Of a stretch of 39,769 nt of DNA, positions 6,136-39,718 are shown one piece after another. The stretch is taken from NCBI GenBank assembly GCA_027451345.1, contig DAIDJO010000004.1, forward strand, positions 1 through 39,769, written 5' to 3'. Origin of the DNA: Solirubrobacterales bacterium. Lineage in GTDB: Bacteria > Actinomycetota > Thermoleophilia > Solirubrobacterales > Solirubrobacteraceae. The notes under the pieces were generated by a model. It made no database searches and was not told the origin of the DNA. It saw only the letters and a list, made by a program, of their open reading frames with translations. Made by a program: the position numbers and the translations under genes. How positions within the stretch are numbered: position 1 is the stretch's first letter; each line of letters begins with the position of its first letter.

Positions 6136-6268
6136 GATTCATGCCTTTCGCTCGATGGACATGACAAGCTTGCCCGCCGGCGGCCGATCGCGGATCGTGG
6201 ACAGACGCGCGATGTGATCGGTAGTTACCACCCGATCCGGTGATGGGCGGCCGGGGCGGGGTTCGATC

Positions 6269-7687: not shown

Positions 7688-7740
7688 CGCCCGGCGGGCC
7701 GGGCCGGTCGCCATTCGGCGCCCGGCCCGGGGGGCGTCAG
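7684..7740 (+). terminator. Long GC-rich terminator hairpin after the PepSY-like gene
   Basis: The arms 7684-7704 and 7720-7740 pair over 21 bases with two mismatches (outer CTGACGCCC pairs with GGGCGTCAG). The stem overlaps the TGA stop codon at 7685-7687. No T-run follows, as is common in GC-rich actinobacteria. Confidence 0.75.
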
Positions 7741-7931
7741 CCCGCATGCCGCCCGCCGGTTCTCCGGCGTCGGCCACCGATGAATCGTGTTTCACAAACT
7801 CCCTGCAAATCCGGAACAAGTTTCAGCTCGTCACACCCTCCGCCGGCGGTTGCACGGGGTGTAAGGTTCGCGCCGTTCGGGCATCTCGCGCCCGGAGCGA
7901 CCGATCCGTCACCGTTCGGAAGGAGAGAATT

Positions 7932-9788
7932 GTGAAGTGGAGTAGAGCCGCCGCGGTGGTGGCGTGTCTGGCCCTGTGGGCCGTGCCGGCGGGAGCGTCG
8001 GCCGCGGCGTCCAATGCGCCGAGTGACGCGCAGACCCTGCACGTCGGGAACCCGTCGCTGGGACCCAACGTTCTCATCTTCAGCCCGTCGATGCCGCAGG
8101 CTTCGATTCAGGCGAAGCTCAACGCGATCGCCGCCCAGCAGGTGTCCAATCAGTTCGGCCCGCAGCGCTACGCCATCCTGTTCGAGCCCGGCACCTACGG
8201 CAGCGCGACCGACCCGCTCAACTTCCAGGTTGGCTACTACACCTCGGTCGCCGGCCTCGGCGCCACGCCCCAGGATGTGGTGATCAACGGCTCGATCGAT
8301 TCCTACAACCAGTGCATCGCCGGTTCCTGCACCGCGCTCGACAACTTCTGGCGGTCCATGTCGAACCTCACGATCAACGTGACGAAGCCGGGGGCGGGGT
8401 GCTACTCGAACGAGTTCTGGGCGGTGTCGCAGGCCTCACCGATGCGTCGCGTGGTGATCAACGGCAGCACGACGCTGATGGACTACTGCAGCGGCCCGTC
8501 CTTCGCCAGCGGCGGCTTCATCGCCGACTCGCAGTTCAACGGCGGCGTCGTCATCAACGGGTCCCAACAGCAGTGGCTTGTCCGCAACAGCTCGCTCAAC
8601 AACGGCTGGACCAATGGCGTGTGGAATCAGGTGTTCCTCGGTGACACCGGCGCCCCCGCGACCGACTTCGCCCCGGGCACCAACCAGTACACCAACGTGG
8701 CGAGCACACCGGTCTCGCAGGAGGAGCCCTTCCTCTACACCGACTCGAGTGGTGCCATGCGCGTGTTCGTGCCGTCGCTGCTGCACAACTCGGTCGGCCC
8801 GTCGTTCGCCTCAGGGCCGACGGCCGGCACCTCGCTGCCGATCTCGCAGTTCTTCGTCGCCGATCCGACGACGCCCGTCCCGACGATCAACGCCGCGCTG
8901 AGCCGTGGCCTCAACCTGATCCTCACGCCGGGCGTCTACGACCTGCCCCAGACGATCGTCGTCAGCCACCCGGACACGATCGTGCTCGGGCTCGGCTTCG
9001 CCACCCTCATCCCGCAGAACGGCAACGTCGCCCTGCGGACGGCCGACGTGCCGGGGATCAAGCTCTCGGGCCTGATCATCGACGCCGGGCCCCAGAACTC
9101 CCCGTCGCTGCTGCAGCTCGGCGGCCGCGCCGACGGCTCACCCCTCCCGGGGCTGGGAGGATCCTCTGACCCCAACGACCCGACGCTCGTCCAGGACGTC
9201 TTCCTCCGCGTCGGCGGTGCCGAGCCCGGCAGGACCACGACGGCGATGATCGTCGATGACAACAACACCATCCTCGACGACATCTGGGCCTGGCGCGCCG
9301 ACCACGGCTACGGCGTCGGCTGGACTCAGAACACCGCCGACACCGGCCTGATCGTCAACGGGAACGATGTCCACGCCTATGGGCTGGCCGTCGAGCATTT
9401 CCAGAAGAACGAGGTGATCTGGAACGGTCAGAACGGCGAGGACGTGTTCTTCCAGAACGAGATGCCCTACGACCCGCCCAGCCAGGCGGCCTGGATGGCG
9501 TCGCCGACCCAGCTCGGGTACCCGGCGTTCCTCGTCGGCAGTGGGGTGAAGACCTTCCAGGGCTACGGCATGGGGAGCTACTCGTTCTTCGACCAGGGCG
9601 TGCCGATCTACGCGAGCAACGCCTTCGAGGCCCCGGACACGCCGGGGGTCCAGTTCCACGACCTGTTGACGATCTTCCTCGACGCCGTGCACGGCCAGGG
9701 AGGGATCCTCAACGTGATCAACGGGACGGGCGGCTCCTCGACGGCGACCAACGCCGACACGCCGGTCGACGTCACGACCTACCCGTGA
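7932..9788 (+). CDS. Secreted beta-helix-like protein (pectate-lyase-like fold)
   Basis: A 618-residue exported protein. The GTG at 7932 is chosen because AGGAGAG stands 4-5 bases upstream and a signal peptide follows directly (AAAVVACLALWAVPAGASA). The frame is open further upstream, but that part is not protein-like. The mature part is rich in Asn, Gly and short beta repeats: VVINGSIDSYNQC, NLTINVTKPGAG, GVVINGSQQQWLVRNSSL and LIVNGNDVHAYGLAVEH. This is typical of right-handed parallel beta-helices. Similar actinobacterial secreted proteins carry uninformative names such as coagulation-factor-like. No catalytic site can be named with certainty, and a polysaccharide-binding or -cleaving role is inference. 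It ends in a perfect hairpin terminator. Confidence 0.75.
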   Translation: MKWSRAAAVVACLALWAVPAGASAAASNAPSDAQTLHVGNPSLGPNVLIFSPSMPQASIQAKLNAIAAQQVSNQFGPQRYAILFEPGTYGSATDPLNFQVGYYTSVAGLGATPQDVVINGSIDSYNQCIAGSCTALDNFWRSMSNLTINVTKPGAGCYSNEFWAVSQASPMRRVVINGSTTLMDYCSGPSFASGGFIADSQFNGGVVINGSQQQWLVRNSSLNNGWTNGVWNQVFLGDTGAPATDFAPGTNQYTNVASTPVSQEEPFLYTDSSGAMRVFVPSLLHNSVGPSFASGPTAGTSLPISQFFVADPTTPVPTINAALSRGLNLILTPGVYDLPQTIVVSHPDTIVLGLGFATLIPQNGNVALRTADVPGIKLSGLIIDAGPQNSPSLLQLGGRADGSPLPGLGGSSDPNDPTLVQDVFLRVGGAEPGRTTTAMIVDDNNTILDDIWAWRADHGYGVGWTQNTADTGLIVNGNDVHAYGLAVEHFQKNEVIWNGQNGEDVFFQNEMPYDPPSQAAWMASPTQLGYPAFLVGSGVKTFQGYGMGSYSFFDQGVPIYASNAFEAPDTPGVQFHDLLTIFLDAVHGQGGILNVINGTGGSSTATNADTPVDVTTYP

Positions 9789-9794
9789 CACGTG

Positions 9795-9826
9795 CGCCCG
9801 GGCGGTGCCACGGCACCGCCCGGGCG
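9795..9826 (+). terminator. Terminator of the secreted beta-helix gene
   Basis: A perfect 15-bp inverted repeat: CGCCCGGGCGGTGCC at 9795-9809 pairs with 9812-9826. It begins 7 bases after the stop codon and is followed by a G-run. Confidence 0.85.
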
Positions 9827-9837
9827 GGGGGGCTCAA

Positions 9838-9874
9838 CCGGTTCGGGTCACGGCCGGACCGTGACCCGAACCGG
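9838..9874 (-). terminator. Terminator of the YVTN propeller gene
   Basis: A perfect 16-bp stem: CCGGTTCGGGTCACGG at 9838-9853 pairs with 9859-9874, with a 5-base loop CCGGA. It lies directly behind the stop of the minus-strand gene that ends at 9876. Each of the two convergent genes therefore has its own hairpin. Confidence 0.85.
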
Positions 9875-9875
9875 C

Positions 9876-11027
9876 TCAGCGCATGATCCCGGTGTGCCCG
9901 ATCGAGTAGTTGCCCGGCTGCGGCCAGACGCACAGGCCGTGTGGGCCGGGGCCGACGGGGATCTCCGCCCGCAGCTTGCCGGTGATCGTGTTGATGGCGT
10001 AGACGACGCTGTTGTAGCGGCCGCTCAACCAGAGGGTTTTCCCGTCCGCGGAGACGCCGCCCATGTCGGGGCTGGCCGGCAGCGGCAGCTGCCAGGTCTT
10101 CACGACCTTGTTGGTGGCGAAGCTCACGACCGAGACCGCGCCCGCCTCCCGGTCCGACACGTACATGTACTTGAAGTTCCGGCTCGGGTAGAGCCCGTGC
10201 GCGCCCGCCGCGGTGTGGATGAAGCCGATCACCTTGAAGGTCGTGGGGTTGATCATCCACACGCCCGCGTTGTCCTGGTCGGCGGTGTAGAGCGTCCGGC
10301 CGTTCGGTGAGAGCTTGACGTCCTGGGGCGCCGAGGCGCCCTTGTTGATCACGAGGACGCGCATCAGCCGCATCGTCTTGGTGTCCACCTCGACCATGCG
10401 GCCGGCGAACTCGCAGCTGGCGTACATGTAGCGCCCGTTGACCGAGAAGTCGGCGTGATCGAGCCCGTCGCAGGGCGGGATCGTCAGTGTGTGGATCAGC
10501 GCCATCGTGTTCGGGTTGCGGAACTGGAGCTGGCGCAGCCGCTCGGCCACGACGATCGCGTACTTCCCGTTCGGGGTGAAGTAGAGGTTGTACGGGTCCT
10601 CGACCGGGATGGACTTCCCGGGCTTGGCCGTCCGCGGGTTGATCGGGGTGAGCGTGTTGCCGGCGTTGTTGTCGACCCACAGCGTCTTGAGGTTCCAGGC
10701 CGGCGTGACGTGCTGAGGGATCGCGCCGGTGACGAACTGGTCGATCACCTTGAACGTCTTCTGGCTGATGACGTCGACGGTGTTGCTGTCGCTGTTGGGG
10801 ACGTAGACGAGCGCCGGGTCGTGCCGGACGACCGGGCTGAAGTTGCCGGGCGTGTCGGCGGCGTAGATGTTGAGCGGCCCCTTGTGGGCCTGGCGGGCGG
10901 CGGTCTGACCCCCCTTCGTCGCCGAGCGCTTGGCCGTCGTCCCGGCCTGGCTCGAGGAGCCGCCTCCACATCCGGCGATGACAGCGGCCGCCGCGACCGC
11001 GGCGACGGTGACGATCGACTTGCGCAC
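9876..11027 (-). CDS. YVTN-type beta-propeller lipoprotein
   Basis: A 383-residue lipoprotein. The GTG at 11027 is chosen because it gives a compact signal peptide (VRKSIVTVAAVAAAAVIAGC) ending in a lipobox with Cys20; an upstream start would add about 60 unconserved residues. The mature part repeats blades of the YVTN/NHL type: LVYVPNSDSNTVDVISQKTF, LKTLWVDNNAGNTLTPIN, GRYMYASCEFAGRMVEVD, GRTLYTADQDNAGVWMIN and KYMYVSDREAGAVSVVSF. About seven blades can be counted. Such proteins sit on the outer face of the membrane, and their ligands are mostly unknown. It is divergent from a Kelch lipoprotein and convergent with the beta-helix gene. Confidence 0.85.
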   Translation of the reverse strand: MRKSIVTVAAVAAAAVIAGCGGGSSSQAGTTAKRSATKGGQTAARQAHKGPLNIYAADTPGNFSPVVRHDPALVYVPNSDSNTVDVISQKTFKVIDQFVTGAIPQHVTPAWNLKTLWVDNNAGNTLTPINPRTAKPGKSIPVEDPYNLYFTPNGKYAIVVAERLRQLQFRNPNTMALIHTLTIPPCDGLDHADFSVNGRYMYASCEFAGRMVEVDTKTMRLMRVLVINKGASAPQDVKLSPNGRTLYTADQDNAGVWMINPTTFKVIGFIHTAAGAHGLYPSRNFKYMYVSDREAGAVSVVSFATNKVVKTWQLPLPASPDMGGVSADGKTLWLSGRYNSVVYAINTITGKLRAEIPVGPGPHGLCVWPQPGNYSIGHTGIMR

Positions 11028-11116
11028 CGGGCGAGCCTGCCGAGGGCGGCTCAGCGGCGCATAACGTGACTCTGAAGATGCTCTTAGCCGCGGCGCCGTG
11101 ACGCGTTGCGGGCCGT

Positions 11117-11122
11117 TACCGT
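11117..11122 (+). promoter_or_regulatory. -10 box (TACCGT) for a near-leaderless Kelch lipoprotein transcript
   Basis: TACCGT fits TANNNT and lies 8 bases before the ATG at 11131. No Shine-Dalgarno lies between, so a leaderless or nearly leaderless mRNA is likely. Confidence 0.5.
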
Positions 11123-11130
11123 CTGGGTTC

Positions 11131-12150
11131 ATGCGTACGAGGGTTCCTTCGGTGATGGGGTTCGCGCTCGCGACCATCCTCGCTGGTTGCGGGGGCTCGG
11201 CGGCGGGCACGAGCGCGTCGGCGGGCCACGCGGCGGCGACCGGTCACGGACGGCGAACAGTACGCCAGCATGCGTCGGCGCGCCCCGCGCAGCTCCGCTA
11301 CCACCGCCTCTACGCGCTGCCCGCGCCGCTGCGCGATCCCGCCTACGCGACGCTCGGCCCGGGACGCTTCGTCCTGATCGGCGGCCTGTCGGCGGCCGAC
11401 ACCTCGACAAGCGAGGTGGACGTCGGCGACCTCACCCACGTCACCCAGGTGGCGACGCTCGCCACGGCGCAGCACGATGCGCAGGCCGCCAGGCTGGGGG
11501 GGCTCGTGTACGCGTTCGGGGGCGGGTCCTTCTCCGAGCTCGATCACATCCTCAGCTTCGACCCGGCGCGCGCCGCCCTCAGCACCGTCGGCGCGCTTCC
11601 CGCCGCCTCATCGGACTCGGCCGTCACCTCGATCGGGACCACCGCGTACATCGCTGGCGGCTTTGACGGCGTGAACTGGAAGAACACGATCCTCGCCTAC
11701 CACGCGGGCGCGTCGTCCGCCAGCGTCGCCGGGACGATCCCCGTGGGGCTCCGGTACGCGGCGGTCACCGCGATCGGCGGCCGCGTCCTGATCGCGGGCG
11801 GCTCGACCCCGACGGCGGCGAGCCGCGCGATCTACCGCTTCGATCCCCGCACCGGCCGGACCACCCGCATCGGCACCCTGCCGTCGCCCGTGACCCATGG
11901 CGAACTGGCCCCGCTTGGCCAGTTCGCCTACCTGGTGGGTGGTCGGGGGAACGGGGCGAGCTCCCAGACGGCGCGGATCTTCGCCATCGACCCGGCGACG
12001 GGTCGGGTCACCACGGCGGGCCGGCTGCCGGCCGGCCTCTCCGACGCGGCGCTCATCCCGAACGGCGCCCGCTCGCTCCTGCTCATCGGGGGCCTCGAGA
12101 GCTCGGGGAGCGTCTCCGCCGACGTGGGCGAGCTCACGCCCGCCCGCTGA
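11131..12150 (+). CDS. Kelch-repeat beta-propeller lipoprotein
   Basis: A 339-residue lipoprotein. The signal peptide VPSVMGFALATILAGC has a lipobox Cys at about residue 20. The mature part carries repeated Kelch blades with the double-glycine motif: FVLIGGLSAADTSTSEVDV, VYAFGGGSFSELDHILSFDP, AYIAGGFDGVNWKNTILAY, VLIAGGSTPTAASRAIYRF, AYLVGGRGNGASSQTARIFA and LLLIGGLESSG. Six blades are visible. Kelch propellers bind proteins or sugars; no catalytic motif is seen. The ATG at 11131 is preferred to the start at 11098 because the signal peptide and the -10 box fit it. It converges with the cytochrome gene, with only two bases between the stops. Confidence 0.85.
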   Translation: MRTRVPSVMGFALATILAGCGGSAAGTSASAGHAAATGHGRRTVRQHASARPAQLRYHRLYALPAPLRDPAYATLGPGRFVLIGGLSAADTSTSEVDVGDLTHVTQVATLATAQHDAQAARLGGLVYAFGGGSFSELDHILSFDPARAALSTVGALPAASSDSAVTSIGTTAYIAGGFDGVNWKNTILAYHAGASSASVAGTIPVGLRYAAVTAIGGRVLIAGGSTPTAASRAIYRFDPRTGRTTRIGTLPSPVTHGELAPLGQFAYLVGGRGNGASSQTARIFAIDPATGRVTTAGRLPAGLSDAALIPNGARSLLLIGGLESSGSVSADVGELTPAR

Positions 12151-12152
12151 GC

Positions 12153-12491
12153 TCACCGCGGCCGCAGCGACTGCAGGTAGGCGACCACCGCGCGGATCTC
12201 CGCGGAGGTGAGCGGGCCGTGGAGCTTCGGCATCCCCGCGGTCGACTGGATGAGCTCGGTGCGCGACATGGGCAGGCCGCGCAGATCACCACCCTGCTGC
12301 ACGGGCAGCGGGTGGCCGTTCACCGAATGGCAGAACTCGCAGTCCTGCGTGAAGACCCGTTGCCCCGACACGTGCGGCGCCACCGACCCGCAGCCGCCGA
12401 GCAGCGTGACCAGCGCGGTGCCCGCCGCCACGACCGCCGAGCGGACTCCTCGCCGGCGTCTCGCCTCGCCCGTCGTCTGCCGCTGATCCAT
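12153..12491 (-). CDS. c-type cytochrome lipoprotein
   Basis: A single-haem protein of about 112 residues. A lipoprotein signal (AVVAAGTALVTLLGGC) precedes a class I cytochrome c domain with the haem motif CEFCH (RVFTQDCEFCHSVNGH). The axial Met is probably in the STAGMPKLHGPLTSAEI segment, and the last helix is AVVAYLQSLRP. It would carry electrons on the outer side of the membrane. An in-frame ATG at 12524 would lengthen the N-terminus by 11 residues; neither start has a good Shine-Dalgarno. No oxidase or reductase gene lies nearby, so the partners are unknown. Confidence 0.82.
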   Translation of the reverse strand: MDQRQTTGEARRRRGVRSAVVAAGTALVTLLGGCGSVAPHVSGQRVFTQDCEFCHSVNGHPLPVQQGGDLRGLPMSRTELIQSTAGMPKLHGPLTSAEIRAVVAYLQSLRPR

Positions 12492-12578
12492 CGACCCGGA
12501 GTCAACCACCCGGTATCGAGCCATGTCGTCGAATGTTGCGACGGGTAGCCACCGGGGGAGACCACGAAAGGAGCAACC

Positions 12579-13085
12579 ATGTCACTGGCCACACTCGACG
12601 ACGTGTTCACCGAGCAGATCGAGGACCTGTACAGCGCGGAGACTCAGCTCGTCTCGGCCCTGCCGAAGATGGCCGGCGCCGCGAGCGACGAGAAGCTGCG
12701 ACAGGCGATCGAGACCCACCTCGAGCAGACCCGCGGCCATGTCGAGCGGCTCGAGCGGATCCGGGGGGATCTCGGGATCACCGGCTCCCAGCGCTGCAAG
12801 GGAATGGCCGGCCTGCTGGAGGAGGGGGAGGAGGTGCTCGGCGAGTCGGGCTCGGGGGCGCCGAAGGACGCCGCATTGATCGCCGCCGCCCAGCGCGTCG
12901 AGCACTACGAGATCGCCGCCTACGGGACGGCCTGGACGCTCGCCGATGAGCTCGGCTACGACGACGCGAAGCGTCTCCTCGGCGAGACCCTCGACGAGGA
13001 GAGCCAGGCCGACGAGCTGCTGACGAAGATCGCCACCGGCGGGCTGCTGCGCGGCGGCGTCAACCGGGAGGCGGCAGAGCGGTAG
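12579..13085 (+). CDS. DUF892 (YciF/YciE-type) ferritin-like protein
   Basis: A 168-residue four-helix protein with the DUF892 start LDDVFTEQIEDLYSAETQLV, then LPKMAGAASDEKLRQAI, THLEQTRGHVERLERI, RVEHYEIAAYGTAWTLADEL and LLGETLDEESQADELLTKI. The Glu and His residues in these helices form the predicted di-iron site. Family members are stress-induced and have an unclear role. AAAGGAG stands 5 bases before the ATG. Confidence 0.92.
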   Translation: MSLATLDDVFTEQIEDLYSAETQLVSALPKMAGAASDEKLRQAIETHLEQTRGHVERLERIRGDLGITGSQRCKGMAGLLEEGEEVLGESGSGAPKDAALIAAAQRVEHYEIAAYGTAWTLADELGYDDAKRLLGETLDEESQADELLTKIATGGLLRGGVNREAAER

Positions 13086-13097
13086 CCGCCACACGCC

Positions 13098-13140
13098 CAC
13101 CGCCCCCCGCTCAGGCCACCTGCCGCAGCGGGGGGCGGTG
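13098..13140 (-). terminator. Shared terminator between DUF892 gene and GT2/GpgS gene
   Basis: A perfect 14-bp stem: CACCGCCCCCCGCT at 13098-13111 pairs with 13127-13140. It lies between two convergent genes, overlaps the last codons of the minus-strand gene and can work for both. Confidence 0.75.
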
Positions 13141-14769
13141 ACGGGCGGGGCGGCCGGCGGCTCGGATCGGGGGCCGCTCCACCACGGGCACGGCCGCGGA
13201 CGAGCCGTCCCACGGGCGCAGGTACGCGCCCGGTTCGCTGCGTGCCGCCGGGTCGGCGACGACGCGTCGCTCCATCGCGGCGAGCACCGCGTAGGCCATC
13301 TCGCCGAGCGCCCGCAGCGGCTGGTGGCGGTTCTGGCGGGTGCCCAGGTCGCACTCGGCCAGCGCGTCGAGTCCGTGCCGGCGCAGCGCGTCGACGAGCA
13401 GCGCGATCTCGACCCCGTAGCCGGCCGGGAACGAGACCGTCTCGAGCAGGTCCCGCCGGGCCGCCATCTCGCCGGCGAGCGGCTGCCGGAAACCGGCCAG
13501 CCGCGGCTCGTGCAGGTTGAGCAGGGGACGGGCCATCAGCTCCGTGACCCGGCCCCCCTCGTCGGGGAGCGTCAGTCCCTCCGCCCGCAGGGGACGGGCG
13601 AACGCGCCCTTCACCAGGACGATCGACGGGTCGGTGAGGATCGGGCCGAGCAGGCCGACGAGGTGGTCGGGGTGCGGATCGGCGGTGTCGGCATCGAGGA
13701 AACAGATCACCTCTCCGCACGTCTCGGGCAGCGCGCGCCACATCGCGTCGCCCTTGCCGAGCGCCGGTCCGAGCTCGGGCCGCAACCGATCCTGCTGCAC
13801 CACGCGGGCGCCGTGCCGGCGGGCGGTGTCCGCCGTGCCGTCCCGGGAGTCGGCATCGACGACGAGGACCTCGTCGATCAGCCCGGCGGTCACGAGCGGG
13901 CCGACGGTCTGCGTGAGGACGCCCGCGATCGTCTCGGCGCACTCCCGCGCCGGCACGATCACCGACACGCTGGTCGCGCCCCGGCGGTGCACCAGGTCGG
14001 GGACGCTGAAGTCGGCGGCACGGTGGCGGCGCTCGTGCAGCCACCGCGACACGGCCAGATCGACCGACAGCCCGCGGGCGGCACGCCCGTCGGAGCGGGC
14101 TGAGGTGCGCACCCGCACGTCGGCCGGGCGCAGCAACGCGACGCCGTGCGCGGCGAGGCGCTCCGCGAAGGCGCTGTCCTCGAGCGCCCGGAGCGGCTCG
14201 ATGCCGCCGACGCGCCGGTAGGTCTCGGCGGTCACCGCGAGCGAGGCGCCCGCGGCATGGTGGTGCTGCGCCGTGGGGTCGGCCGCGCGCACCCGCTGCA
14301 ACCTGATCTCGGCATCGCGCCGGCGTGCCCGCAGCACCGCCCCGGGCAGCTGCGCGCGCTCCGTCGCGTCCAGCTCGATCATCCCGGCAATCGCCTCGGC
14401 GCCGGCCGCGACGTGTGCGAGCTGTCGCTCCAGCCAGTCGCGGGCCGGGCGGGAGTCGGCGTCGGTGCAGGCGATCAGGCCCCGGTGGGCTCCGGCGCGG
14501 AGCAGGCGGTCCGCCGCCGCATCCATGCCCAGCCGCCGCGCCGCGCCGACCCCCGTCCCGGGCCCCGGCAGGGCGGCCACATCGAGCCCGCCCTCGGCGG
14601 CGGTCGCCCTCACCACGGCGGCGGTGGCGTCGCGGCACCCGTCGAGCACCACGATCACCGCGAAGCGGTCGCGCGCCACCGTCTGTGACGCGAGCGCCCG
14701 CAGGCACCCCGCGATCCGCTCCGCCTCGTCCCGCGCGGGGACGACGATGACGGCCGCCAGCCGGGCCAT
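13111..14769 (-). CDS. Two-domain glycosyltransferase: GT2 domain fused to a glucosyl-3-phosphoglycerate synthase (GpgS)-like domain
   Basis: A 552-residue protein with two GT-A domains. The first (about 1-240) has VIVVPARDEAERIAGCL, VVLDGCRDAT and ACTDADSRPARDWLERQL. The second (about 260-510) matches GpgS: SVIVPARECAETIAGVL, DADSRDGTADTARRHGARVV, GKGDAMWRAL, the metal-binding FLDADTADPHP, and FRQPLAGEMAARRDLL followed by FPAGYGVEIALLVDAL. GpgS makes glucosyl-3-phosphoglycerate from an NDP-glucose, the first step towards glucosylglycerate and methylglucose lipopolysaccharides. Whether this fused form keeps that substrate is inference. The ATG at 14769 directly precedes the first domain; a GTG at 14802 is also possible and would reduce the gap to the upstream gene from 36 to 3 bases. 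It is the last gene of a four-gene operon. Confidence 0.85.
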   Translation of the reverse strand: MARLAAVIVVPARDEAERIAGCLRALASQTVARDRFAVIVVLDGCRDATAAVVRATAAEGGLDVAALPGPGTGVGAARRLGMDAAADRLLRAGAHRGLIACTDADSRPARDWLERQLAHVAAGAEAIAGMIELDATERAQLPGAVLRARRRDAEIRLQRVRAADPTAQHHHAAGASLAVTAETYRRVGGIEPLRALEDSAFAERLAAHGVALLRPADVRVRTSARSDGRAARGLSVDLAVSRWLHERRHRAADFSVPDLVHRRGATSVSVIVPARECAETIAGVLTQTVGPLVTAGLIDEVLVVDADSRDGTADTARRHGARVVQQDRLRPELGPALGKGDAMWRALPETCGEVICFLDADTADPHPDHLVGLLGPILTDPSIVLVKGAFARPLRAEGLTLPDEGGRVTELMARPLLNLHEPRLAGFRQPLAGEMAARRDLLETVSFPAGYGVEIALLVDALRRHGLDALAECDLGTRQNRHQPLRALGEMAYAVLAAMERRVVADPAARSEPGAYLRPWDGSSAAVPVVERPPIRAAGRPARHRPPLRQVA

Positions 14770-23491: not shown

Positions 23492-25438
23492 GTGTTCTCC
23501 GGCCGGCCGATGTTGCGCAACGTCTCGCTCGTCCGCCTGCTTGGCGCCTTCGGGCTGCTGAACCTCTCCGAGTGGGGATTCATCGCCGCGCTCAGCGTGC
23601 ACGCCTTCCGGGTGGGCGGCACCGTTGCGGTCGGCCTGCTCGGCGTCAGGTTCGTCGTCGGCGCGCTGAGCAGCGCTGTGCTGGCCCCGCTCCTGTCCGC
23701 CCGTCGTGGTGTGCTCAGCCTGATCACCCTGCTGCGGGCGGCGCTGCTCGGCGGGGCGGCCACCGGCACGATCATCGGTGTCCCCTTCCTGCTCGTGCTC
23801 CTGTTCGTCGTGCTCGATGCGATGGTGGGGGCGGTCTACCGTCCGGCGCAATCGCGGCTGATGCCCACGCTCGCGCACTCACCCGAGGAGCTGACCGGTG
23901 CGGTGGCCGCGACGAGCATGGCCAAGACGCTCGGTCAGGCGGCCGGGGCGCTTGTCGGTGGCGCCGCGGTCTCGATCGTCTCGCCCGGCGCGGCGATGGC
24001 GGGCGAGGCTGGATTGATGCTGCTCGCGCTCGTCTGCACGCTCGGCGTGGGGGGGCGGCCGGCGGCGGTCGACGCTCAGTCCGTTCTGCGCCAGTTGCGT
24101 GGCGGGCTGAGCTCGTTTCCGAGCGTGCTCGGTGACGTGCATGCCTGGCCGCTCGTGCTGGCGAGCGTCCTGCGCACCCTCGTCCGAGGGCTCTGGGGCG
24201 CGCTGCTCGTCGTCGTCGCCCTCCGGCTCCTGCACGCCGGCAACTCGAGCGTCGGGCTCCTGCAGGCCGCGAGCGGTCTCGGCGTCCTGCTCGCCGTTCC
24301 CGTGACGGTGGCGCAGATCGGTCGAGCGCGGCTTGCGCTGCCGTGCCTGACGTCGTTCATCGCCGCCGGGATCGCCGTCGGTCTCGTCTCGACGACCACC
24401 GTGCTCCCGCTCATCGCCGCACTCGTGCTCGTCTGGGGTGGCGCGATGGCGGTGGCGGACGCGACGTCTCTGTCGCTGCTGCACCGACTGCTGCCAATCG
24501 ACGCCTTCGCTCGCACCGTGACGGTGATGGAGTCGCTGAAGCTCCTCACGGAGGGCGCCGGCGCGTTGCTGGCGCCGGCGCTCGTCACCCTCCTGGGCCT
24601 CCGTACCGCCCTGCTCGTCGGCGGGCTGCCGCTGCCGCTGGTGATGGTCGTCACCTGGGGTCGGGTGCGGGGTTCGGACGAGTACGCGGCGGGGCGCGGC
24701 ACGGTGGTGGCACGGCTGCATCGGGTGCCGCTGTTCCATGGGATGGACATGGCCTCGCTCGAGCAGCTGGCCGCCCTTGCCCGGCCACTCGTCGTCGCGC
24801 CCGGTGGTGAGCCGATCCGGCAGGGGGAGCCGGGTGACCGCTTCTACGTCATTCAGGCCGGCGTCGCCGAGGTGGTCATCGACGGCGTTGGTGTGAGGCA
24901 GCTCGGCCCCCAGGACGAGTTCGGCGATCGGGCCCTGCTGCGGGACACGCCGCGCACCGCGACCGTGCGGGCGAGGACGGAGATGCGCGTGCTCGGCATC
25001 GATCGCGACGCCTTCCTGCGGGCGGTCACCGGGGAGGCGGGGGTGAGGCTCGCGCCCCCGGATCTGGTGGGCGTCCCGGTCCCGCATGTGCTGCGGGAGC
25101 TCCCGCTCTTCGCGCGCGTCGAGGAGTCCGCTGTGCGGGCGCTGTCCCAGCGGGTCACGCGACGACAGCTGCCGGCCGGGACGGTCGTCTTCGACGCCAC
25201 CGAACCCAGCGATGGGGCCTACGTCATCCTGCGCGGCCGGATCGAGCTCGAACGGGACGGAGCGGTGAGCGCCGTGCTGCTCCCCGGGGAGATCTTCGGC
25301 GAGCTGAGCTCGATCAGGGGCATGCCGAGGGTCGGCCGGGCGGTCGCCACCGAGGCGAGCGTCGTGCTCTGGATGGCGGCGGACGACCTGCGCGAGGCGC
25401 TCGGCCGGCCCCGCGCGCTCACCGAGTCGACCGCCTAA
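23492..25438 (+). CDS. MFS permease fused to two cyclic-nucleotide-binding domains
   Basis: A 648-residue protein. Residues 1-390 carry about 12 membrane segments of MFS type (LLGAFGLLNLSEWGFIAAL, DAMVGAVYRPAQSRLMP, AATSMAKTLGQAAGALVGGA). Residues about 406-510 form a first cNMP-binding domain (VPLFHGMDMASLEQLAALA, PGDRFYVIQAGVAEVVIDG, EFGDRALLRDTPRTATV). Residues about 533-648 form a second one (LPLFARVEESAVRALSQR, DGAYVILRGRIELE, IFGELSSIRGMPRVGRAV). The phosphate cassette is FGD in domain 1 and FGE in domain 2; both keep an Arg. Ligand control of transport by cAMP or a related nucleotide is inference. The substrate is unknown. Confidence 0.88.
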   Translation: MFSGRPMLRNVSLVRLLGAFGLLNLSEWGFIAALSVHAFRVGGTVAVGLLGVRFVVGALSSAVLAPLLSARRGVLSLITLLRAALLGGAATGTIIGVPFLLVLLFVVLDAMVGAVYRPAQSRLMPTLAHSPEELTGAVAATSMAKTLGQAAGALVGGAAVSIVSPGAAMAGEAGLMLLALVCTLGVGGRPAAVDAQSVLRQLRGGLSSFPSVLGDVHAWPLVLASVLRTLVRGLWGALLVVVALRLLHAGNSSVGLLQAASGLGVLLAVPVTVAQIGRARLALPCLTSFIAAGIAVGLVSTTTVLPLIAALVLVWGGAMAVADATSLSLLHRLLPIDAFARTVTVMESLKLLTEGAGALLAPALVTLLGLRTALLVGGLPLPLVMVVTWGRVRGSDEYAAGRGTVVARLHRVPLFHGMDMASLEQLAALARPLVVAPGGEPIRQGEPGDRFYVIQAGVAEVVIDGVGVRQLGPQDEFGDRALLRDTPRTATVRARTEMRVLGIDRDAFLRAVTGEAGVRLAPPDLVGVPVPHVLRELPLFARVEESAVRALSQRVTRRQLPAGTVVFDATEPSDGAYVILRGRIELERDGAVSAVLLPGEIFGELSSIRGMPRVGRAVATEASVVLWMAADDLREALGRPRALTESTA

Positions 25439-32958: not shown

Positions 32959-33186
32959 CGGATGGGCCGAGGGCGGGCACACCGTCGCTGACACGGCGGC
33001 GGTCTCTCTGCCGAGAAAGCCTGTTGCGGCTCACCGCGGACGGAACCGGATGGGACCACCACCGACCCTTCAAGCCAACCAGTCGCCGTCTCCGTCTGAG
33101 CCCCGGGCAGGTCAGCCCGGGTCCGAGCCATTTGCGTGCGGCCGGCAGGATCACTAGGGTTGCGTCATCGTGGGGCGGGACGCTCG

Positions 33187-34854
33187 GTGACAGGCGGGTT
33201 CAGGCGTGGGGCGGCGGGACTGCTGCTGAGTGCCGCGGTACTCGGGCTGAGCGTGAGCCCCGCCCTCGCCAGCGGCCGGAGGGCCGGGCCGCGCGTCAGT
33301 GCCCCCGCCCACGTTCGGACGGGTCATCTCTTCACGATCGTCGCCCGCACCCATGCGCGAGGCAGAGGCGTCATGAGCGTCTGGTACGACGCATACGGCA
33401 AATGGCACGAGGCGGCAGCGCGAGCGACATGCTCGAACTGCACCGTGCGGTTCCGCCTGCGGGCCGCCGGAGCAGGTGAGATGACCATGGTCGCGGTTCT
33501 GTCGAGGGGCAGGCGCCGGATATGGGAGTCACGACCGATGACCATCGATGTCATCGGGGGCGCCAACTCCACCAACACGGGCGCCCCGGCGACCCCGGTC
33601 GGGGGTGCCGGGGCCGGCGCCCCGACGAGCCCCGTTGGGGGGACCCCGACCACCACCGCCACGACCCCCATCACCACCAACGTCAACACCGCGCCGGCCG
33701 CGGGCGGCGCAGCCCCGCCCCCGCCGGCCGTGCCGAATCCGGACCTCGGAACCGAACTGACGGGCTCGCAGACCCTCGGCATCGGCCAGTACATCACCTC
33801 GCCCGACGGCCAGTACGAGCTGGTCATGCAGGGCGACGGGAATCTCGTGGAGTACCAGAACGGAACGGCGCTGTGGAGCTCACAGACCGGTGGGGAGAGC
33901 GGCGCGACCGCGACCATGCAGGCCGACGGCAACCTCGTGCTCTACCGCAGCGGCTCGGCCATCTGGAACTCGCAGACGCAGGGCTTCCCCGGTGCGTACC
34001 TCAGCCTGCAAAACGACTCGAACCTTGTCCTCTACCAGGATGGCCATCCGATCTGGGATCGGGGAAGCGGTTATCTCGGCGATGAATTGCAGGGCTGGAC
34101 GCTCGGGGTGGGCGCCTACCTGCTCTCAGCGAACCGCGCCTACGAGCTGATCATGCAGGGCGACGGGAACCTCGTCGAATACCAGAGCGGAACGGCGCTG
34201 TGGAGCACACAGACCGGTGGGGACAGCGGCGCGACCGCGACCATGCAGGCCGACGGCAACCTCGTCCTCTACCGCAACGGCGCCGCGGTCTGGAACTCGC
34301 AGACGGGAGGACACACGAACGCCGACGTGATCCTGCAGAACGACTCGAATCTGGTCATCTACCAGAACGGCACCGCGATCTGGGACCGCTCGAGTGGGTT
34401 GCTGACCGGCGGGGGTTCATCCGCGGGGCCCACGGCCGCCGAGCAACAGGCTGTCGCATGGGCCGTGAGCCGGCTCGGCTCGACCGCCTTCAACGGGCTG
34501 TGCCTCACCTTCGTCTATGACGCCTACCTTGACGGCGCGGGGATCAACCTGGAGGGCTACACCTCGGGCGTCACCTACAGCAGTTCCACCTATCCGCAGG
34601 ATGTGTGGGGGCACTTCACCCACGGCACCACCGGCACGGGCACACCGCCCTACGGCGCGCTCGTCTTCTTCAACTCGAAGCCCGGCTACAGCATCGAATA
34701 CAGCCATGTGATGATCATGGGCTCCGGCGGCGAGATGATCTCCACGACGGACGCGTTCAACGAGTCGGACGTGCATTACGAGACGCTCGCCCAGCAGGCT
34801 GCGTCCGGCGCCTACGCGAGCTATGTCGGATGGTGGCTTCCGGACGGAAGCTGA
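33187..34854 (+). CDS. Secreted protein with two B-type lectin domains and a C-terminal NlpC/P60- or CHAP-like domain
   Basis: A 555-residue exported protein. The signal peptide is GAAGLLLSAAVLGLSVSPAL then ASG. A beta domain (about 35-120) and a Thr/Pro linker (about 120-185) precede two bulb-type mannose-binding lectin domains (about 187-297 and 297-404). Each has three QxDxNxVxY-type sites: MQGDGNLVEY, MQADGNLVLY, LQNDSNLVLY or VIY. The C-terminal domain (about 418-555) resembles an NlpC/P60 or CHAP amidase, with candidate catalytic Cys439 (NGLCLTFVYDAYL) and His507 (EYSHVMIM). The lectin part should bind mannose-type sugars, and the end may cut peptidoglycan. The GTG at 33187 fits the signal peptide and a GGGCGGGA upstream. 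Confidence 0.85.
   Translation: MTGGFRRGAAGLLLSAAVLGLSVSPALASGRRAGPRVSAPAHVRTGHLFTIVARTHARGRGVMSVWYDAYGKWHEAAARATCSNCTVRFRLRAAGAGEMTMVAVLSRGRRRIWESRPMTIDVIGGANSTNTGAPATPVGGAGAGAPTSPVGGTPTTTATTPITTNVNTAPAAGGAAPPPPAVPNPDLGTELTGSQTLGIGQYITSPDGQYELVMQGDGNLVEYQNGTALWSSQTGGESGATATMQADGNLVLYRSGSAIWNSQTQGFPGAYLSLQNDSNLVLYQDGHPIWDRGSGYLGDELQGWTLGVGAYLLSANRAYELIMQGDGNLVEYQSGTALWSTQTGGDSGATATMQADGNLVLYRNGAAVWNSQTGGHTNADVILQNDSNLVIYQNGTAIWDRSSGLLTGGGSSAGPTAAEQQAVAWAVSRLGSTAFNGLCLTFVYDAYLDGAGINLEGYTSGVTYSSSTYPQDVWGHFTHGTTGTGTPPYGALVFFNSKPGYSIEYSHVMIMGSGGEMISTTDAFNESDVHYETLAQQAASGAYASYVGWWLPDGS
33748..34401 (+). repeat. 327-bp tandem duplication of the lectin domain
   Basis: Matching segments lie exactly 327 bases (109 codons) apart, for example CATGCAGGGCGACGGG at 33825 and 34152, and GGCGCGACCG at 33901 and 34228. 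Long stretches are nearly identical at the DNA level, so the duplication is recent or kept alike by gene conversion. Confidence 0.85.
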
Positions 34855-35302: not shown

Positions 35303-36949
35303 ATGACCGTACGTGAGCCAATCGCCGAGCTGGCGTTCGAGCCGCCGGGGCCGGGGTCATGGGAACTGGACGCCGTGCACTTCCCACGGCCCGCCACCCG
35401 CTACTGGTGCGAGATGCATCCGGAGGCGTTGGTCCGCGGTTTCCGGGCGTTCACGAGCTACTACGGGATGCTGCTCGACTCGCTCGACTACGCGTACCTC
35501 AACGGCTTCGCATACACCTCGCCCAGACCCGTGACACCCGAGCAGGCCCCCGAGCGCTTCCAGCGCTCCGAGGAGGTGTTCGCCAGGAAGCTCTGGCGTG
35601 AGCAACTGCGCAACTGGGACGAGAAGCTCAAGCCGGCCTCGATCCGCACGCACAGGGAGCTGCAGTCGGTCGAGCTGGAGCAGCTCTCCGACGAGGAGCT
35701 CGGCGCCCATCTGGTGCGCTGCCATGAGCACCACCGGGAGATGGTCTACCAGCACATGGCGCACACGGGCGCGGCGATGGTGCCGATCGGCGACCTGCTC
35801 GTTCACGCGAGCGCGTGGACCGGCGTCCCCCACGCGGAGCTGCTCGGGATGATGCGCGGAGCGGCGCCCGTGTCGGCCGGCGCCTCCGGGGAGCTCGCCG
35901 CGATGGTCGCAGCGATCCGGAGTGATCCCGGCGCGCAGGATCTTCTCAACGCGGAGGGTGACGCGGGGGGGACGCTCGACCGGCTGCGGAACCTTGACAG
36001 CGAGGCCGGTCGGGCCGTCTCGGCCTACCTCGACCTCGTCGGCTACCGACTGCTCGACGGGTTCGACATCTCGGGGCGCTACGCGCTCGAGATGCCCGAC
36101 GCGCTGCTGCGCGCGATCCGCGCCCAGGTGGCCGGCAGCGGCGAGACGGACGCCGGCGCGGCCGCGGAGCAGCGGATCGCCGAGATTCGCGAGAAGGTTC
36201 CCGAGGAACACCGGGACCAGTTCGACGAGCTGCTCGGCGAGGCGCGGTTGATGTACCGCATCCGCGACGAGCGCGGCGTCTACAGCGACATCTGGGCTTC
36301 GGGGATCATGCGTCGCGCCGCGCTGGCCGCCGGCCGGCGCCTCGCTGACCGGGGACGCCTGCAGGACCCGGAGCATTTCATCGAGGCGTCGATCGGCGAG
36401 ATGCAGGCTCTGCTGACAGGCGCCGAGGAACCCGCCGCCGACGAGCTCGCGGCGCGCCACCGGTGGCGCACGACGCACACGGCCAAGGATGCGCCCGCGC
36501 ATCTGGGGCCGCCGGCGCCACCGCCGCCGGATCCCTCGGGCCTACCGCCCGCTGCGGCCCGGATGATGCGAGCAACCGGGATCACGATGCAGTCGATGTT
36601 CGCTCCGTCGCAGGCGGCGCACGAGCCGGACCTGCTCCACGGTCTCCCCGCCAGCGCGGGCGTCTATGAGGGCCCGGCGCGCCGGGTGTCCGGTCCGGCC
36701 GACTTCGACCGCATCCGCCAGGGCGACGTCCTCGTCACGGAGAGCACGTCGGAGGCGTTCAACATCCTCCTGCCGCTGCTCGGCGCGATCGTCACCGACG
36801 CCGGCGGTCTGTTGTCCCACCCGGCGATCGTCAGCCGGGAATACGGAATCCCGGGCGTGGTCGGGACGCGTGACGCCACAAGTCGGATCGCCGACGGGGT
36901 GCGGGTGCGGGTCGACGGCACGGCGGGTGAAGTGGCAGTCCTCGGGTGA
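35303..36949 (+). CDS. PEP-utilising-enzyme-like protein: helical substrate domain plus phosphohistidine swivel domain
   Basis: A 548-residue protein. Residues 1-450 are mostly helical and resemble the middle (substrate-binding) part of rifampicin phosphotransferases and PEP-synthase-like enzymes: FARKLWREQLRNWDEKLKPA, MVYQHMAHTGAAMVPIGDLL, FDELLGEARLMYRIRDERGV and YSDIWASGIMRRAALAAGRR. Residues about 450-548 are the swivel domain, with the phosphoacceptor His in GGLLSHPAIVSREYGIPGVV and the closing IADGVRVRVDGTAGEVAVL. It lacks an ATP-grasp domain, which the next gene supplies. The ATG at 35303 has a GGGAG-type Shine-Dalgarno. It would transfer a phosphoryl group from the phospho-His to an unknown substrate. 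Confidence 0.85.
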   Translation: MTVREPIAELAFEPPGPGSWELDAVHFPRPATRYWCEMHPEALVRGFRAFTSYYGMLLDSLDYAYLNGFAYTSPRPVTPEQAPERFQRSEEVFARKLWREQLRNWDEKLKPASIRTHRELQSVELEQLSDEELGAHLVRCHEHHREMVYQHMAHTGAAMVPIGDLLVHASAWTGVPHAELLGMMRGAAPVSAGASGELAAMVAAIRSDPGAQDLLNAEGDAGGTLDRLRNLDSEAGRAVSAYLDLVGYRLLDGFDISGRYALEMPDALLRAIRAQVAGSGETDAGAAAEQRIAEIREKVPEEHRDQFDELLGEARLMYRIRDERGVYSDIWASGIMRRAALAAGRRLADRGRLQDPEHFIEASIGEMQALLTGAEEPAADELAARHRWRTTHTAKDAPAHLGPPAPPPPDPSGLPPAAARMMRATGITMQSMFAPSQAAHEPDLLHGLPASAGVYEGPARRVSGPADFDRIRQGDVLVTESTSEAFNILLPLLGAIVTDAGGLLSHPAIVSREYGIPGVVGTRDATSRIADGVRVRVDGTAGEVAVLG

Positions 36950-37764
36950 GCCAGGTTGTCCCGCTCGCGGAGGCGCACGAGGAATCCGTCTTCGGCTCGA
37001 AGGCGGTGGGCCTTGGGGCGGCGGCCCGTGGCGGCCTTCCCCTCCCGCCGGGCATCGCGCTGGCCGAGTCGATCGTCGAGGACGTCGCCTCCGGTGAGGA
37101 GGCGGCGATCCGCGAGGTCACCGACGCCGCTTCCGCCCTGCCGGTCCCGCTCGCCGTGCGTTCCTCGGCCGTCGACGAGGACGGCGCGAGCGCGAGCTTC
37201 GCCGGGCAGCACATCACGCTCCTGAACATCCGCACGGCCGAGGAGGTGAGCGACGCGGTGCGGGAGGTCTGGTGGTCGGCCAACTCTGACTCCGCGATCA
37301 CCTACCGGCAGCGGGTTGGTCTGCTGCACCGCCCGAGCGTGGGAGTCGTCGTCCAGTCGCTGCTCGCCCCGACCGTGGCCGGCGTGATGTTCACCCGGAA
37401 CCCCATCAGCGGCGCGGACGAACGGATCATCGAGGCGAGCTGGGGACTCGGGGAGGCGGTGGTGGCCGCTCAGGTGATCCCCGACACCTACCGCGTCGAT
37501 CGAAGCGGCCAGATCATTGAACGGACTGCCGGATACAAGAAGATCGCCATCCGAGCGCTCCCGACCGGAGGGACCTTCGAGGAACCGGTCGCCTCCGAGC
37601 TCACCGAGGCGCTCTGCCTGACCGACGACGATCTGGGTGAGCTGCACATGCTCGCCACCCGGTGCGAAACGCTCTACGGGCCCGCCCGTGACATCGAGTG
37701 GGCGATCGCCGACGGCCGCCTGTACCTACTTCAGTGCCGCGCCATCACGCGGACCGGCCACTGA
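36946..37764 (+). CDS. Stand-alone PEP-synthase/PPDK-type ATP-grasp (ATP-binding) protein
   Basis: A compact 272-residue ATP-grasp protein of the pyruvate phosphate dikinase N-terminal family. All main motifs are visible: FGSKAVGLGAAARGGLPLPP, LAVRSSAVDEDGASASFAGQ, VAGVMFTRNPISGADERIIE, ASWGLGEAVVAAQVIPD and ARDIEWAIADGRLYLLQCRA. In PEP synthases and rifampicin phosphotransferases this domain phosphorylates the swivel His with ATP. Its GTG overlaps the TGA of the swivel gene (GTGA at 36946-36949), so the two chains are made together and should form a complex. The domain order is the reverse of fused enzymes, where ATP-grasp comes first. Confidence 0.88.
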   Translation: MSQVVPLAEAHEESVFGSKAVGLGAAARGGLPLPPGIALAESIVEDVASGEEAAIREVTDAASALPVPLAVRSSAVDEDGASASFAGQHITLLNIRTAEEVSDAVREVWWSANSDSAITYRQRVGLLHRPSVGVVVQSLLAPTVAGVMFTRNPISGADERIIEASWGLGEAVVAAQVIPDTYRVDRSGQIIERTAGYKKIAIRALPTGGTFEEPVASELTEALCLTDDDLGELHMLATRCETLYGPARDIEWAIADGRLYLLQCRAITRTGH

Positions 37765-37783
37765 CGAGGAACGAGGAGAACCC

Positions 37784-38194
37784 ATGAGCGGCGCACCGGT
37801 CGAAGTGCTCCAGCAGGTCCCCTTGTTTGCGGAGCTCCGCCCCGAGGATCTCGCCCAGGTGGCTCGGGTGTTCAAGAAGCGTCAGTTCGCCGCCGGTGAG
37901 ACGGTCACGAAGGAGGGATCTGGCGGCGCGGCGTTCTTCCTGATCGAGTCCGGCGAGGCGCAGGTGAGCGTCCGGGGTCACAGCCGTCCACCGCTCGGCC
38001 CCGGGGATCACTTCGGGGAGGTGGCGCTGATCGACGGCCAGGAGCGCTCAGCGACGATCACGGCCAACACCGATCTGGTCTGCTACGGGCTCACCTACTG
38101 GGACTTCCAGCCGCTCGTGCACGGCAACGCGGCGATCGCCTGGGGCCTCCTGCTCGCGCTGGCCAGGCTGCTCCGGGCCGCGCAGAACGACTGA
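37784..38194 (+). CDS. Single-domain cyclic-nucleotide-binding protein
   Basis: A 136-residue cNMP-binding domain with no DNA-binding part. It starts LQQVPLFAELRPEDLAQVA and has GGAAFFLIESGEAQVSV. The phosphate cassette is intact: FGEVALIDGQERSATITA, with Glu for the ribose and Arg for the phosphate, as in cAMP receptors. The end is a helix (AIAWGLLLALARLLRAAQN). An AGGAG lies 6-8 bases before the ATG, 19 bases after the ATP-grasp stop, so it belongs to the same operon. It may regulate the phosphotransfer pair in response to cAMP or another cyclic nucleotide. Confidence 0.88.
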   Translation: MSGAPVEVLQQVPLFAELRPEDLAQVARVFKKRQFAAGETVTKEGSGGAAFFLIESGEAQVSVRGHSRPPLGPGDHFGEVALIDGQERSATITANTDLVCYGLTYWDFQPLVHGNAAIAWGLLLALARLLRAAQND

Positions 38195-38352: not shown

Positions 38353-39492
38353 TCAGCTGATCGTGATCTGTTGCCGGGTGGCTGTGATGTGGTGTCCTCG
38401 GCCGCGGGTGAGGGTGAGGGTGTAGCGTCCGCGGCGTATGGTCCGGCCGGTGCGGGTGCGCAGCAGCAGTGTGCCGCGGCGAGTGGTGCCGGTCGCGTAG
38501 GTCACGCCATGACGGGTGAGCGTTGCGCGCCTGGCGCGTGTCGCGGCCCTGAACTTGACCGGGTGGGTCAGGAGCTTGGTCCTGCACACTCGTCTGGTCC
38601 GGTGGCGCCGCTTGACCGTGCTGCAGGTGACCAGCTCGACCTTACCGGCCCCGCCTCGCTTGCCGGCCCGGCCCCGCTTGCCGGCCGGGCCTGCTGGCCC
38701 GGTTACGCCCGCTGGACCGGTTACGCCCGCTGGACCGGTCGCGCCCGCTGGACCGGTCGGGCCGGTCGGGCCGCTGTTGGCCGCCACCCCGGTTCCCTGC
38801 AGCGTGATGCTCGTCGGCGTGGGCTCGTTATCGGTGAGCGTCAGTGTTGCGGTTCGTGTGCCCGCCGCCTGTGGGGTGAACCGCACGGCGATCGTGCATG
38901 ACTGCGCGAACGCCAGGCTCCGTCCCGCGCACCCGTCGGTGGTGATCGTGAAGTCGCCGGTATCGCTGCCGCCAAGCGTGGCTTCGGACAGCCGCAGCGC
39001 CTGCGCGCCCAAGTTGCTGACCACGAGTGACACCTCGGCTGACGGCTCAGCGACGGTCTGGTCGCCGAAGTCACCGCCCGCAAACGTCGCCTCCGGTGCG
39101 GACTCAAACACCTCCGCGTTCGGGGAACTGGTGCCGCCGGCGATCAGCACCTCCCCGTCCGGCAGCGGCGCCGCCACCGCGTACACGCGCGGGGTGGTCA
39201 TCGACCCGGTCGCGGTGAACGTGCCGGTCGCCGGGTCATACAGCTCCGCGCTCTGCAGATAGGAGCCGCCGCTGGTCTGGCCACCGGCGATCAGCACATC
39301 GCCGTTCGGCAACGGCGCCGCCACCGCTCCTAAACGCACGGTGGTCATCGATCCGACCCCCACGCCGGTGAAGTACGACGCTGATGACGCCCACGCGCCC
39401 GACGCGCCCACCAACCCCACCACCACAGCACATACCAACACCAACCACGTCCGCCGCACACAACCCCAACCAGCACACGTGAAGTCACGCAC
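38353..39492 (-). CDS. Surface protein: Kelch-type repeats, choice-of-anchor-D-like domain, collagen-like repeats
   Basis: A 379-residue exported protein. The GTG at 39492 is chosen because a perfect AGGAGGT stands 5 bases upstream. A signal peptide follows (RTWLVLVCAVVVGLVGASGA). Two or three Kelch-type repeats come next (APLPNGDVLIAGGQTSGGSY, APLPDGEVLIAGGTSSPNAE). A choice-of-anchor-D/HYDIN-like beta domain covers about residues 130-240 (TFAGGDFGDQTVAEPSAEVS, CTIAVRFTPQAAGTRTATLT). A collagen-like stretch of G-P-T/G-P-A triplets and a very basic C-terminus (RAGKRGGAGKVELV, then RRHRTRRVCRTK) end the protein. It probably sits at the cell surface. Confidence 0.82.
   Translation of the reverse strand: MRDFTCAGWGCVRRTWLVLVCAVVVGLVGASGAWASSASYFTGVGVGSMTTVRLGAVAAPLPNGDVLIAGGQTSGGSYLQSAELYDPATGTFTATGSMTTPRVYAVAAPLPDGEVLIAGGTSSPNAEVFESAPEATFAGGDFGDQTVAEPSAEVSLVVSNLGAQALRLSEATLGGSDTGDFTITTDGCAGRSLAFAQSCTIAVRFTPQAAGTRTATLTLTDNEPTPTSITLQGTGVAANSGPTGPTGPAGATGPAGVTGPAGVTGPAGPAGKRGRAGKRGGAGKVELVTCSTVKRRHRTRRVCRTKLLTHPVKFRAATRARRATLTRHGVTYATGTTRRGTLLLRTRTGRTIRRGRYTLTLTRGRGHHITATRQQITIS
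38701..38772 (-). repeat. 18-bp tandem repeats encoding collagen-like triplets
   Basis: GGTTACGCCCGCTGGACC occurs at 38701 and 38719. A one-step variant lies at 38737, followed by two 9-bp units GGTCGGGCC at 38755-38772. They encode the G-x-y triplets of the minus-strand protein. Confidence 0.85.
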
Positions 39493-39718
39493 CCGACACC
39501 TCCTGACACGTTCAAGATTGACGCTCACACCAATCACCGGTCCGGCTCACAACCACCCGACGCAGAGGAACGCCCAACTCGGACTCTTCGCCAGCCCCCA
39601 AAGCGATCATCCCATACATCAAGCTCCTCCTGGTTTGCGTCTGAGTCAATGACACAGATCCGGGTTTTGATTAGCCCACATCTGCGAGGCTTCCGGGACG
39701 ATCAGCAGGAGGGTCTTG

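Follow-up and report, generated by a model that had tools for sequence, protein, structure and literature searches.

A conserved two-chain swivel dikinase-type cassette with a predicted cyclic-nucleotide sensor in Solirubrobacterales

We examined a stretch of 39,769 nt from a Solirubrobacterales bacterium (GCA_027451345.1, contig DAIDJO010000004.1, positions 1–39,769), here called the window, and in it a cassette of three genes, A, B and C. A encodes a chain with a helical part and a swivel phosphohistidine domain, B a short ATP-grasp chain, and C a small protein with one cyclic nucleoside monophosphate (cNMP)-binding domain. Judged from sequence, A-B-C is probably a two-chain small-molecule dikinase of the type of rifampicin phosphotransferase (RPH) and phenylphosphate synthase, with an ATP half that is predicted to be under direct cyclic-nucleotide control. 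A split and reordered two-chain layout had been put forward in a preliminary description of this DNA; the layout is present (Pfam on A and B), but it is not new: PpsAB, CreHI and HpeHI show the same division into two chains, with the ATP-grasp gene in second place (PMC12167813 and the Azoarcus locus L067 described below). The cNMP sensor as the third part appears to be the novelty. No publication on a cNMP domain paired with a swivel dikinase or phosphoenolpyruvate (PEP) synthase was found in a limited literature collection, searched partly by title. If the reading is true, the cassette would encode a second-messenger-controlled small-molecule kinase, and C would be the counterpart of the CBS subunit found in phenylphosphate synthase.

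Conservation of the A-B-C cassette

The association of C with the dikinase chains is conserved in all close relatives. A is found at approximately 62% identity or more in 11 distinct genomes, window included (clade 1), the 10 others carrying full-length relatives of A at approximately 62–68% identity, and the cNMP domain lies directly after the ATP-grasp in 11/11 of them. Six of the 11 (L018, L019, L020, L054, L059 and L076) encode B and C as a single open chain of approximately 414–431 residues, and Pfam finds both PPDK_N and cNMP_binding on the fused L019 chain; in the remaining five (window, L021, L052, L053 and L055) B and C are separate neighbours. Such a recurrence of A-B-C is far above chance, and a chance adjacency of C was rejected on the strength of the full conservation and the six fusions. 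Across the 11 members the distances of C also track those of A (Mantel r = 0.55; 1 of 5,000 permutations as high) and of B (Mantel r = 0.51; 0 of 5,000 as high). The cyclic-nucleotide link, which the preliminary description had drawn from operon structure, is much strengthened by this presence, fusion and co-divergence; the search for genomes with the same three-gene order that it had proposed returned A-B-C in every close relative, and nowhere in this conserved neighbourhood is the cNMP gene absent.

The relatives were collected by searching A in four overlapping genome samples, each of which includes the window genome and in which scoring was limited to a few top candidates from each genome: 151 genomes (14 matches at 1e-30, 4 of these at 65–100% identity, window included), 399 genomes of the class (10 matches at 1e-80), 396 of the phylum (10 at 1e-60) and 232 of the order (7 at 1e-100). 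A separate contig search for A added two loci, both from metagenome-assembled genomes (MAGs). The cassette is patchy, being found within the order in 7 of 232 genomes, many of which are incomplete. The genome of L018 is labelled Acidimicrobiaceae, which could reflect transfer or binning.

Beyond clade 1, the sister loci L051, L056, L061 and L062 (A at 45–54% identity) keep B and gave no C match at E 1e-3; the stretch of sister locus L060 ends within B, and the presence of C was left unscored there. At a greater distance (A at 33–44%), L057, L058 and L063–L066 carry A-type genes for which the fetched stretch gave no match to B or C, and hence no recognisable partner with an ATP-grasp, the contig of L058 being short. 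In a 34-row tree that covers 10 of the 11 clade members (L076 was left out), the C-bearing rows form one group with 99/100 support and need a single change, and the fused and the separate states need three changes each.

The three genes lie on the plus strand as previously described, and all of their coordinates were verified (Table 1). A starts with ATG at 35303, preceded by a G-rich, ribosome-binding-like stretch; B starts with GTG at 36946, within a GTGA overlap with the end of A; and C starts at 37784, 19 bases after the end of B. The frame of A is open upstream as far as 34823, but the start at 35303 is preferred because homology to the relatives begins near residue 7 counted from it. Around the cassette, a consensus scan alone was used to look for promoters and terminators and detected none.

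Table 1 Features of the A-B-C cassette (positions in the window)
Feature	Position	Strand	Basis
Gene A, acceptor and swivel phosphohistidine subunit, 548 aa	35303..36949	+	Pfam, full-length relatives
Helical, presumed acceptor-binding part of A, residues 1–439	35303..36619	+	Profile match to PpsA-type N-part
R321-D322-E323 of A, candidate second-step catalytic residues (place of RPH Arg666-Glu667)	36263..36271	+	
Swivel (mobile) domain of A, residues 472–542	36716..36928	+	PF00391 PEP-utilizers, E 3.8e-19
Swivel His506 of A, presumed phosphate carrier	36818..36820	+	Identical in 33/33 A rows
Gene B, short ATP-grasp subunit, 272 aa	36946..37764	+	PF01326 (PPDK_N)
Gene C, single cNMP-binding domain, 136 aa	37784..38194	+	PF00027
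Phosphate-binding cassette of C, F77–A94, with E79 and R88	38012..38065	+	FGE[VIM]AL...R.AT in relatives

The dikinase chains and their known relatives

The residues expected for catalysis are kept in both chains, in line with the earlier statement that the ATP-grasp motifs and the swivel His are intact. B matches PPDK_N with an E value of 2.7e-61 from profile position 76 onward, and its Lys19, Arg72, Glu251, Gln263 and Arg265 are invariant in the 16 rows compared (of 25 aligned). His506 of A is invariant in all rows counted, and a 34th row, an outlier outside the count, has His too. The context of this His in the window, GGLLSHPAIVSRE, fits the GG..(S/T/C)H pattern and is without the regulatory Thr of PEP synthase, a comparison taken from the account of HpeHI (PMC12167813). 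Over its first 440 residues, A has no Pfam match that passes the cut-off. All NCBIfam matches are below cut-off, with PRK08296 ‘hypothetical protein’ the best for A, followed by PEP synthase and rph models, and with PEP synthase, RedH and rph models for B. Among the structures matched by B is PDB 9goj, which may be HpeI.

An ordinary PEP synthase (pyruvate, water dikinase), with which the pair shares ATP-grasp and swivel-His domains, was rejected. The PEP/pyruvate-binding domain PF02896 (PEP-utilizers_C) is absent from A, B and C according to Pfam, the window genome has an ordinary three-domain PEP synthase, PF02896 included, elsewhere (G000:C108), and the homologues of the cassette are not fused as ordinary PEP synthases. 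The view that the system is not a PEP/pyruvate enzyme is hence upheld.

The closest biochemically studied architecture is that of PpsAB, CreHI and HpeHI (PMC12167813). HpeHI is described as a two-component dikinase, with HpeI as the ATP-grasp component, HpeH as the acceptor and swivel component, and homologues that include CreHI and PpsAB; its main product from ATP is AMP, and mutation of the His leaves no detectable activity (PMC12167813). Like HpeHI of Rhodococcus rhodochrous GD02 and CreHI of Corynebacterium glutamicum, the window enzyme has a helical chain with a C-terminal swivel His next to a separate ATP-grasp chain, and no PEP-binding domain. No cNMP subunit is mentioned in the main text of the HpeHI paper, nor do the words ‘cyclic’, ‘CBS’ or ‘third’ occur in it (PMC12167813). 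HpeHI and CreHI act in aromatic catabolism. B of the window is at least approximately 70 residues shorter than HpeI, whose lobes are described as far as residue 340 (PMC12167813), and its segment from the PPG to the RSSA motif is approximately 45 residues shorter than in PpsB and RPH. This shortened ATP-grasp N-lobe, with approximately 45 residues fewer between these motifs, is common to the window family and the B of a further locus (L032, 3228–4142).

A precedent for the gene order is provided by phenylphosphate synthase. On a plasmid of Azoarcus sp. KH32C (L067), genes for a PEP-utilizing protein, a PEP/pyruvate-binding protein and a CBS protein are followed by ppcB, ppcD, ppcA and ppcG, and Pfam finds a swivel domain, PPDK_N and two CBS stretches on the first three. 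The window has the same order of swivel chain, ATP-grasp chain and small third subunit as PpsABC (Thauera; reference Azoarcus sp. KH32C) but differs from it in that the third gene encodes a cNMP instead of a CBS domain and that ppcB, D, A and G do not adjoin. According to the available account of phenylphosphate synthase, the gamma subunit has a stimulating effect on the reaction, but what exactly it does is not known (PMC6114531).

The helical part of A is, by profile comparison, homologous to PpsA-type proteins: hhalign of the N-parts of the window family (18 rows) and the PpsA type (6 rows) gave a probability of 98.8, an E value of 5.5e-17 and 383 aligned columns at 19% identity. For the comparison of individual sequences, the phenolic kinases (HpeH, CreH) are represented by PpsA from L067; A of the window is 21% identical to PpsA and 25% to the corresponding RPH part, and B is 34% identical to PpsB and 34% to the RPH part. 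Another reading, favoured by the studied architecture, the PpsABC-like gene order and this profile match, is that A-B-C opens a pathway of aromatic catabolism by phosphorylating a phenolic growth substrate, C serving as a switch for the metabolic state. We consider this unlikely, partly from the gene neighbourhood discussed further below and partly from the active site, at which the window segment R-D-E-R stands against V-E-N-H in PpsA.

At the same site RPH has R-E-Y-P-K. Its Arg666-Glu667 are reported to be required in the second transfer step, and even the distant clade Q retains them along with a Lys (PMC4844700). An Arg directly followed by two acidic residues is present in 21/21 A proteins of the window superfamily; where RPH block 9 has Arg-Glu...Lys, the window has Arg-Asp-Glu, and the Lys is without a counterpart. 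The window group thus appears neither PpsA-like nor rifampicin-kinase-like at the acceptor site, where its residues differ from both.

RPH (row from Streptomyces sp. MMBL 11-1, L071) also resembles the window enzyme in having an ATP-grasp, an acceptor domain, a C-terminal swivel and an Arg-acid pair, but it is one chain with the ATP-grasp first, and no sensor domain is described in the account at hand (PMC4844700). The shared domains and the Arg-acid pair would suit a dedicated antibiotic-inactivating kinase, for rifamycin or another drug, under second-messenger control. We regard such a kinase as quite improbable. The helical part of A matches a single RPH sequence more weakly than it does the PpsA type (probability 68, E 4.7e-5, 170 columns), and in an alignment by eye the RPH acceptor-site Gln337 (block 1) has no counterpart near window residue 26. 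The rph model NF041857 scores 106.6 bits on A and 175.7 on B, far below its cut-off of 999, although a split gene could hardly reach a cut-off set for the full chain.

The cNMP domain as a candidate sensor

C matches cNMP_binding with an E value of 1.8e-15 and 57.1 bits against a cut-off of 27.5, and its relatives in the PDB include regulatory subunits of PKA, PKG, CRP-type regulators and a bacterial cyclic-nucleotide-gated channel. The phosphate-binding cassette, previously described as intact, is so in all 11 clade members (window included, L076 among them), with both the Glu and the Arg that we take to be the nucleotide contact residues. C is accordingly predicted to bind cyclic AMP (cAMP) or another cNMP through this cassette. 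The position that follows the cassette Arg varies among clade members (S, A, L, I, T or M), which could instead be expected of a domain that has the cNMP fold but a structural role in docking or oligomerisation and binds no cyclic nucleotide; such folds without nucleotide binding occur among CRP-family proteins. We doubt that C is one of them, given the invariant cassette Glu and Arg and the presence of cyclases of family PF00211 in all of the clade genomes searched.

PF00211 cyclases were found in 10/10 clade genomes, with 1–26 matches each, versus 5/14 control genomes; the search left out G789, the source of L076. Two of them lie close to the cassette: in L059 a cyclase is divergent to A at a distance of approximately 125 bp, and in L021 one is approximately 1.3 kb away with other open frames between. 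No further cyclase match was found within 3 kb of the cassette in the 10 genomes, as far as contig numbers allow (that of L018 is missing). In a simple post hoc Poisson count, the chance of at least one cyclase within 0.6 kb, where one case was seen, is 0.054, and the chance of two or more is 0.006 within 1.5 kb and 0.019 within 3 kb. A link between this proximity and the function of C is suggestive only, and the cyclase as a general neighbour of the cassette was dropped, with 2 of 10 loci.

A precedent for cyclic-nucleotide gating of an enzyme in an actinobacterium is MsPat, in which cAMP is reported to relieve autoinhibition (PMC8556138). Mycobacterial Pat acetyltransferase, whose NCBIfam profile is the nearest to C though below cut-off, is an enzyme with a fused cAMP-binding domain that relieves autoinhibition (PMC8556138). 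Unlike the window enzyme, it has a GNAT catalytic domain and acts on protein lysine.

By homology, we infer the following catalytic cycle for A and B. B would bind ATP, and His506 of A would dock on B and take the beta-phosphate, leaving AMP and then inorganic phosphate. The swivel of A would then swing back to the helical part, where R321-D322-E323 may aid transfer to a hydroxyl of the acceptor. C with bound cNMP, tethered to or docked on the ATP-grasp, could open or close the ATP half-reaction. Control at this step is the simplest reading because C adjoins the ATP-grasp chain or is part of it. Related enzyme types carry unrelated sensor domains in the same place, CBS in phenylphosphate synthase and cNMP here, and the six B-C fusions together with the third-subunit sensors suggest that enzymes of this family are controlled at their ATP half-reaction.

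Gene neighbourhood and acceptor class

Shared neighbours were sought by all-against-all BLAST of the called neighbours of 19 loci, and none common to most clade-1 loci was found beyond A, B and cNMP proteins. The recurring groups comprise two from large families and at varying places, namely an ATPase of ABC type (L018, L020 and L059) and a protein resembling MMPL (L018, L020 and L054), together with TetR (L051, L061, L062 and L065), LuxR/AAA regulators (L055, L056 and L063), a cluster that has GGDEF-like members (L053, L065 and window) and two pairs. No relative of PpcA, PpcB, PpcD, PpcG, UbiD or UbiX was found at E 1e-3 in 20 loci (window included; without L058 and L076), and the source locus L067 returned all six in the same search. 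This, and the fact that clade 1 has no catabolic neighbour in common, argues against a phenolic growth substrate.

Regulators beside A in clade 1 are an XRE-cupin protein (L020), a divergent TetR (L054), a PucR-type protein (L052) and, by eye, an ArsR-like protein (L055); none was recognised beside A in the window, L018, L019, L021 and L053. In sister and more distant loci a related TetR-like gene lies directly upstream of A (L051, L061, L062 and L065, Pfam-checked in L051 only), and L060 has, by eye, a TetR-like gene upstream with an efflux-like MFS protein beyond it. A UGT/EryCIII-like glycosyltransferase gene follows a few bases after B in L061, where TetR-like gene, A, B and glycosyltransferase (3469–7984) run in the same direction and possibly form an operon of two hydroxyl-modifying enzymes. 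An antibiotic-inactivating kinase would also lead one to expect genes of the TetR, efflux-like and glycosyltransferase kinds nearby, as in these sister loci.

The pattern is that of an accessory enzyme under separate regulation, which agrees more with modification of a hydroxylated xenobiotic or natural product than with a role in central metabolism, and the acceptor is probably such a compound rather than pyruvate. The earlier suggestion of an acceptor other than PEP or pyruvate thereby holds: it is probably another small molecule. The furthest-reaching version of this reading would be a phosphohistidine-swivel dikinase gated directly by cAMP or a cognate cNMP that a class III cyclase makes in the same bacterium, so that a second messenger would allosterically switch a xenobiotic or natural-product kinase on or off. 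We put this full version forward tentatively, at slightly less than an even chance, with the two-chain dikinase under cyclic-nucleotide control remaining the more probable statement. Several points weigh against the reading of A-B-C as a cyclic-nucleotide-controlled dikinase for such an acceptor. The xenobiotic-type context lies mostly in sister loci without C, and neighbouring regulators in clade 1 are recognised in only four loci and belong to differing families. The proximity of cyclases is a post hoc observation and is absent from 8 of 10 loci. The variable residue after the cassette Arg leaves both cAMP and cyclic GMP as candidate ligands, and the missing N-lobe residues of B make activity less than certain.

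Further cNMP proteins are encoded in the window and in two relatives. The window carries, at 23492–25438 (+), a protein with two PF00027 stretches (5.3e-33) and a sub-cut-off MFS match; a protein of similar make-up lies beside A-B-C in L019 (3865–5604, −), its cNMP part 35% identical to C, and L054 has a further cNMP protein at 4533–5615 (−). Downstream of the cassette in L019, a Solirubrobacteraceae MAG, contractile-injection-system-like genes were seen by eye at 9195–13620 (AAA ATPase, DUF4255-like and tail-sheath-like). Upstream of A, the window encodes a secreted-looking protein (33136–34854, +) with a B_lectin match (7.3e-10) and, by eye, the look of a C-terminal CHAP/NlpC-type hydrolase, and downstream of C a protein (38353–39537, −) that by eye has GPTGP-type collagen-like repeats and a Kelch-like N-part.

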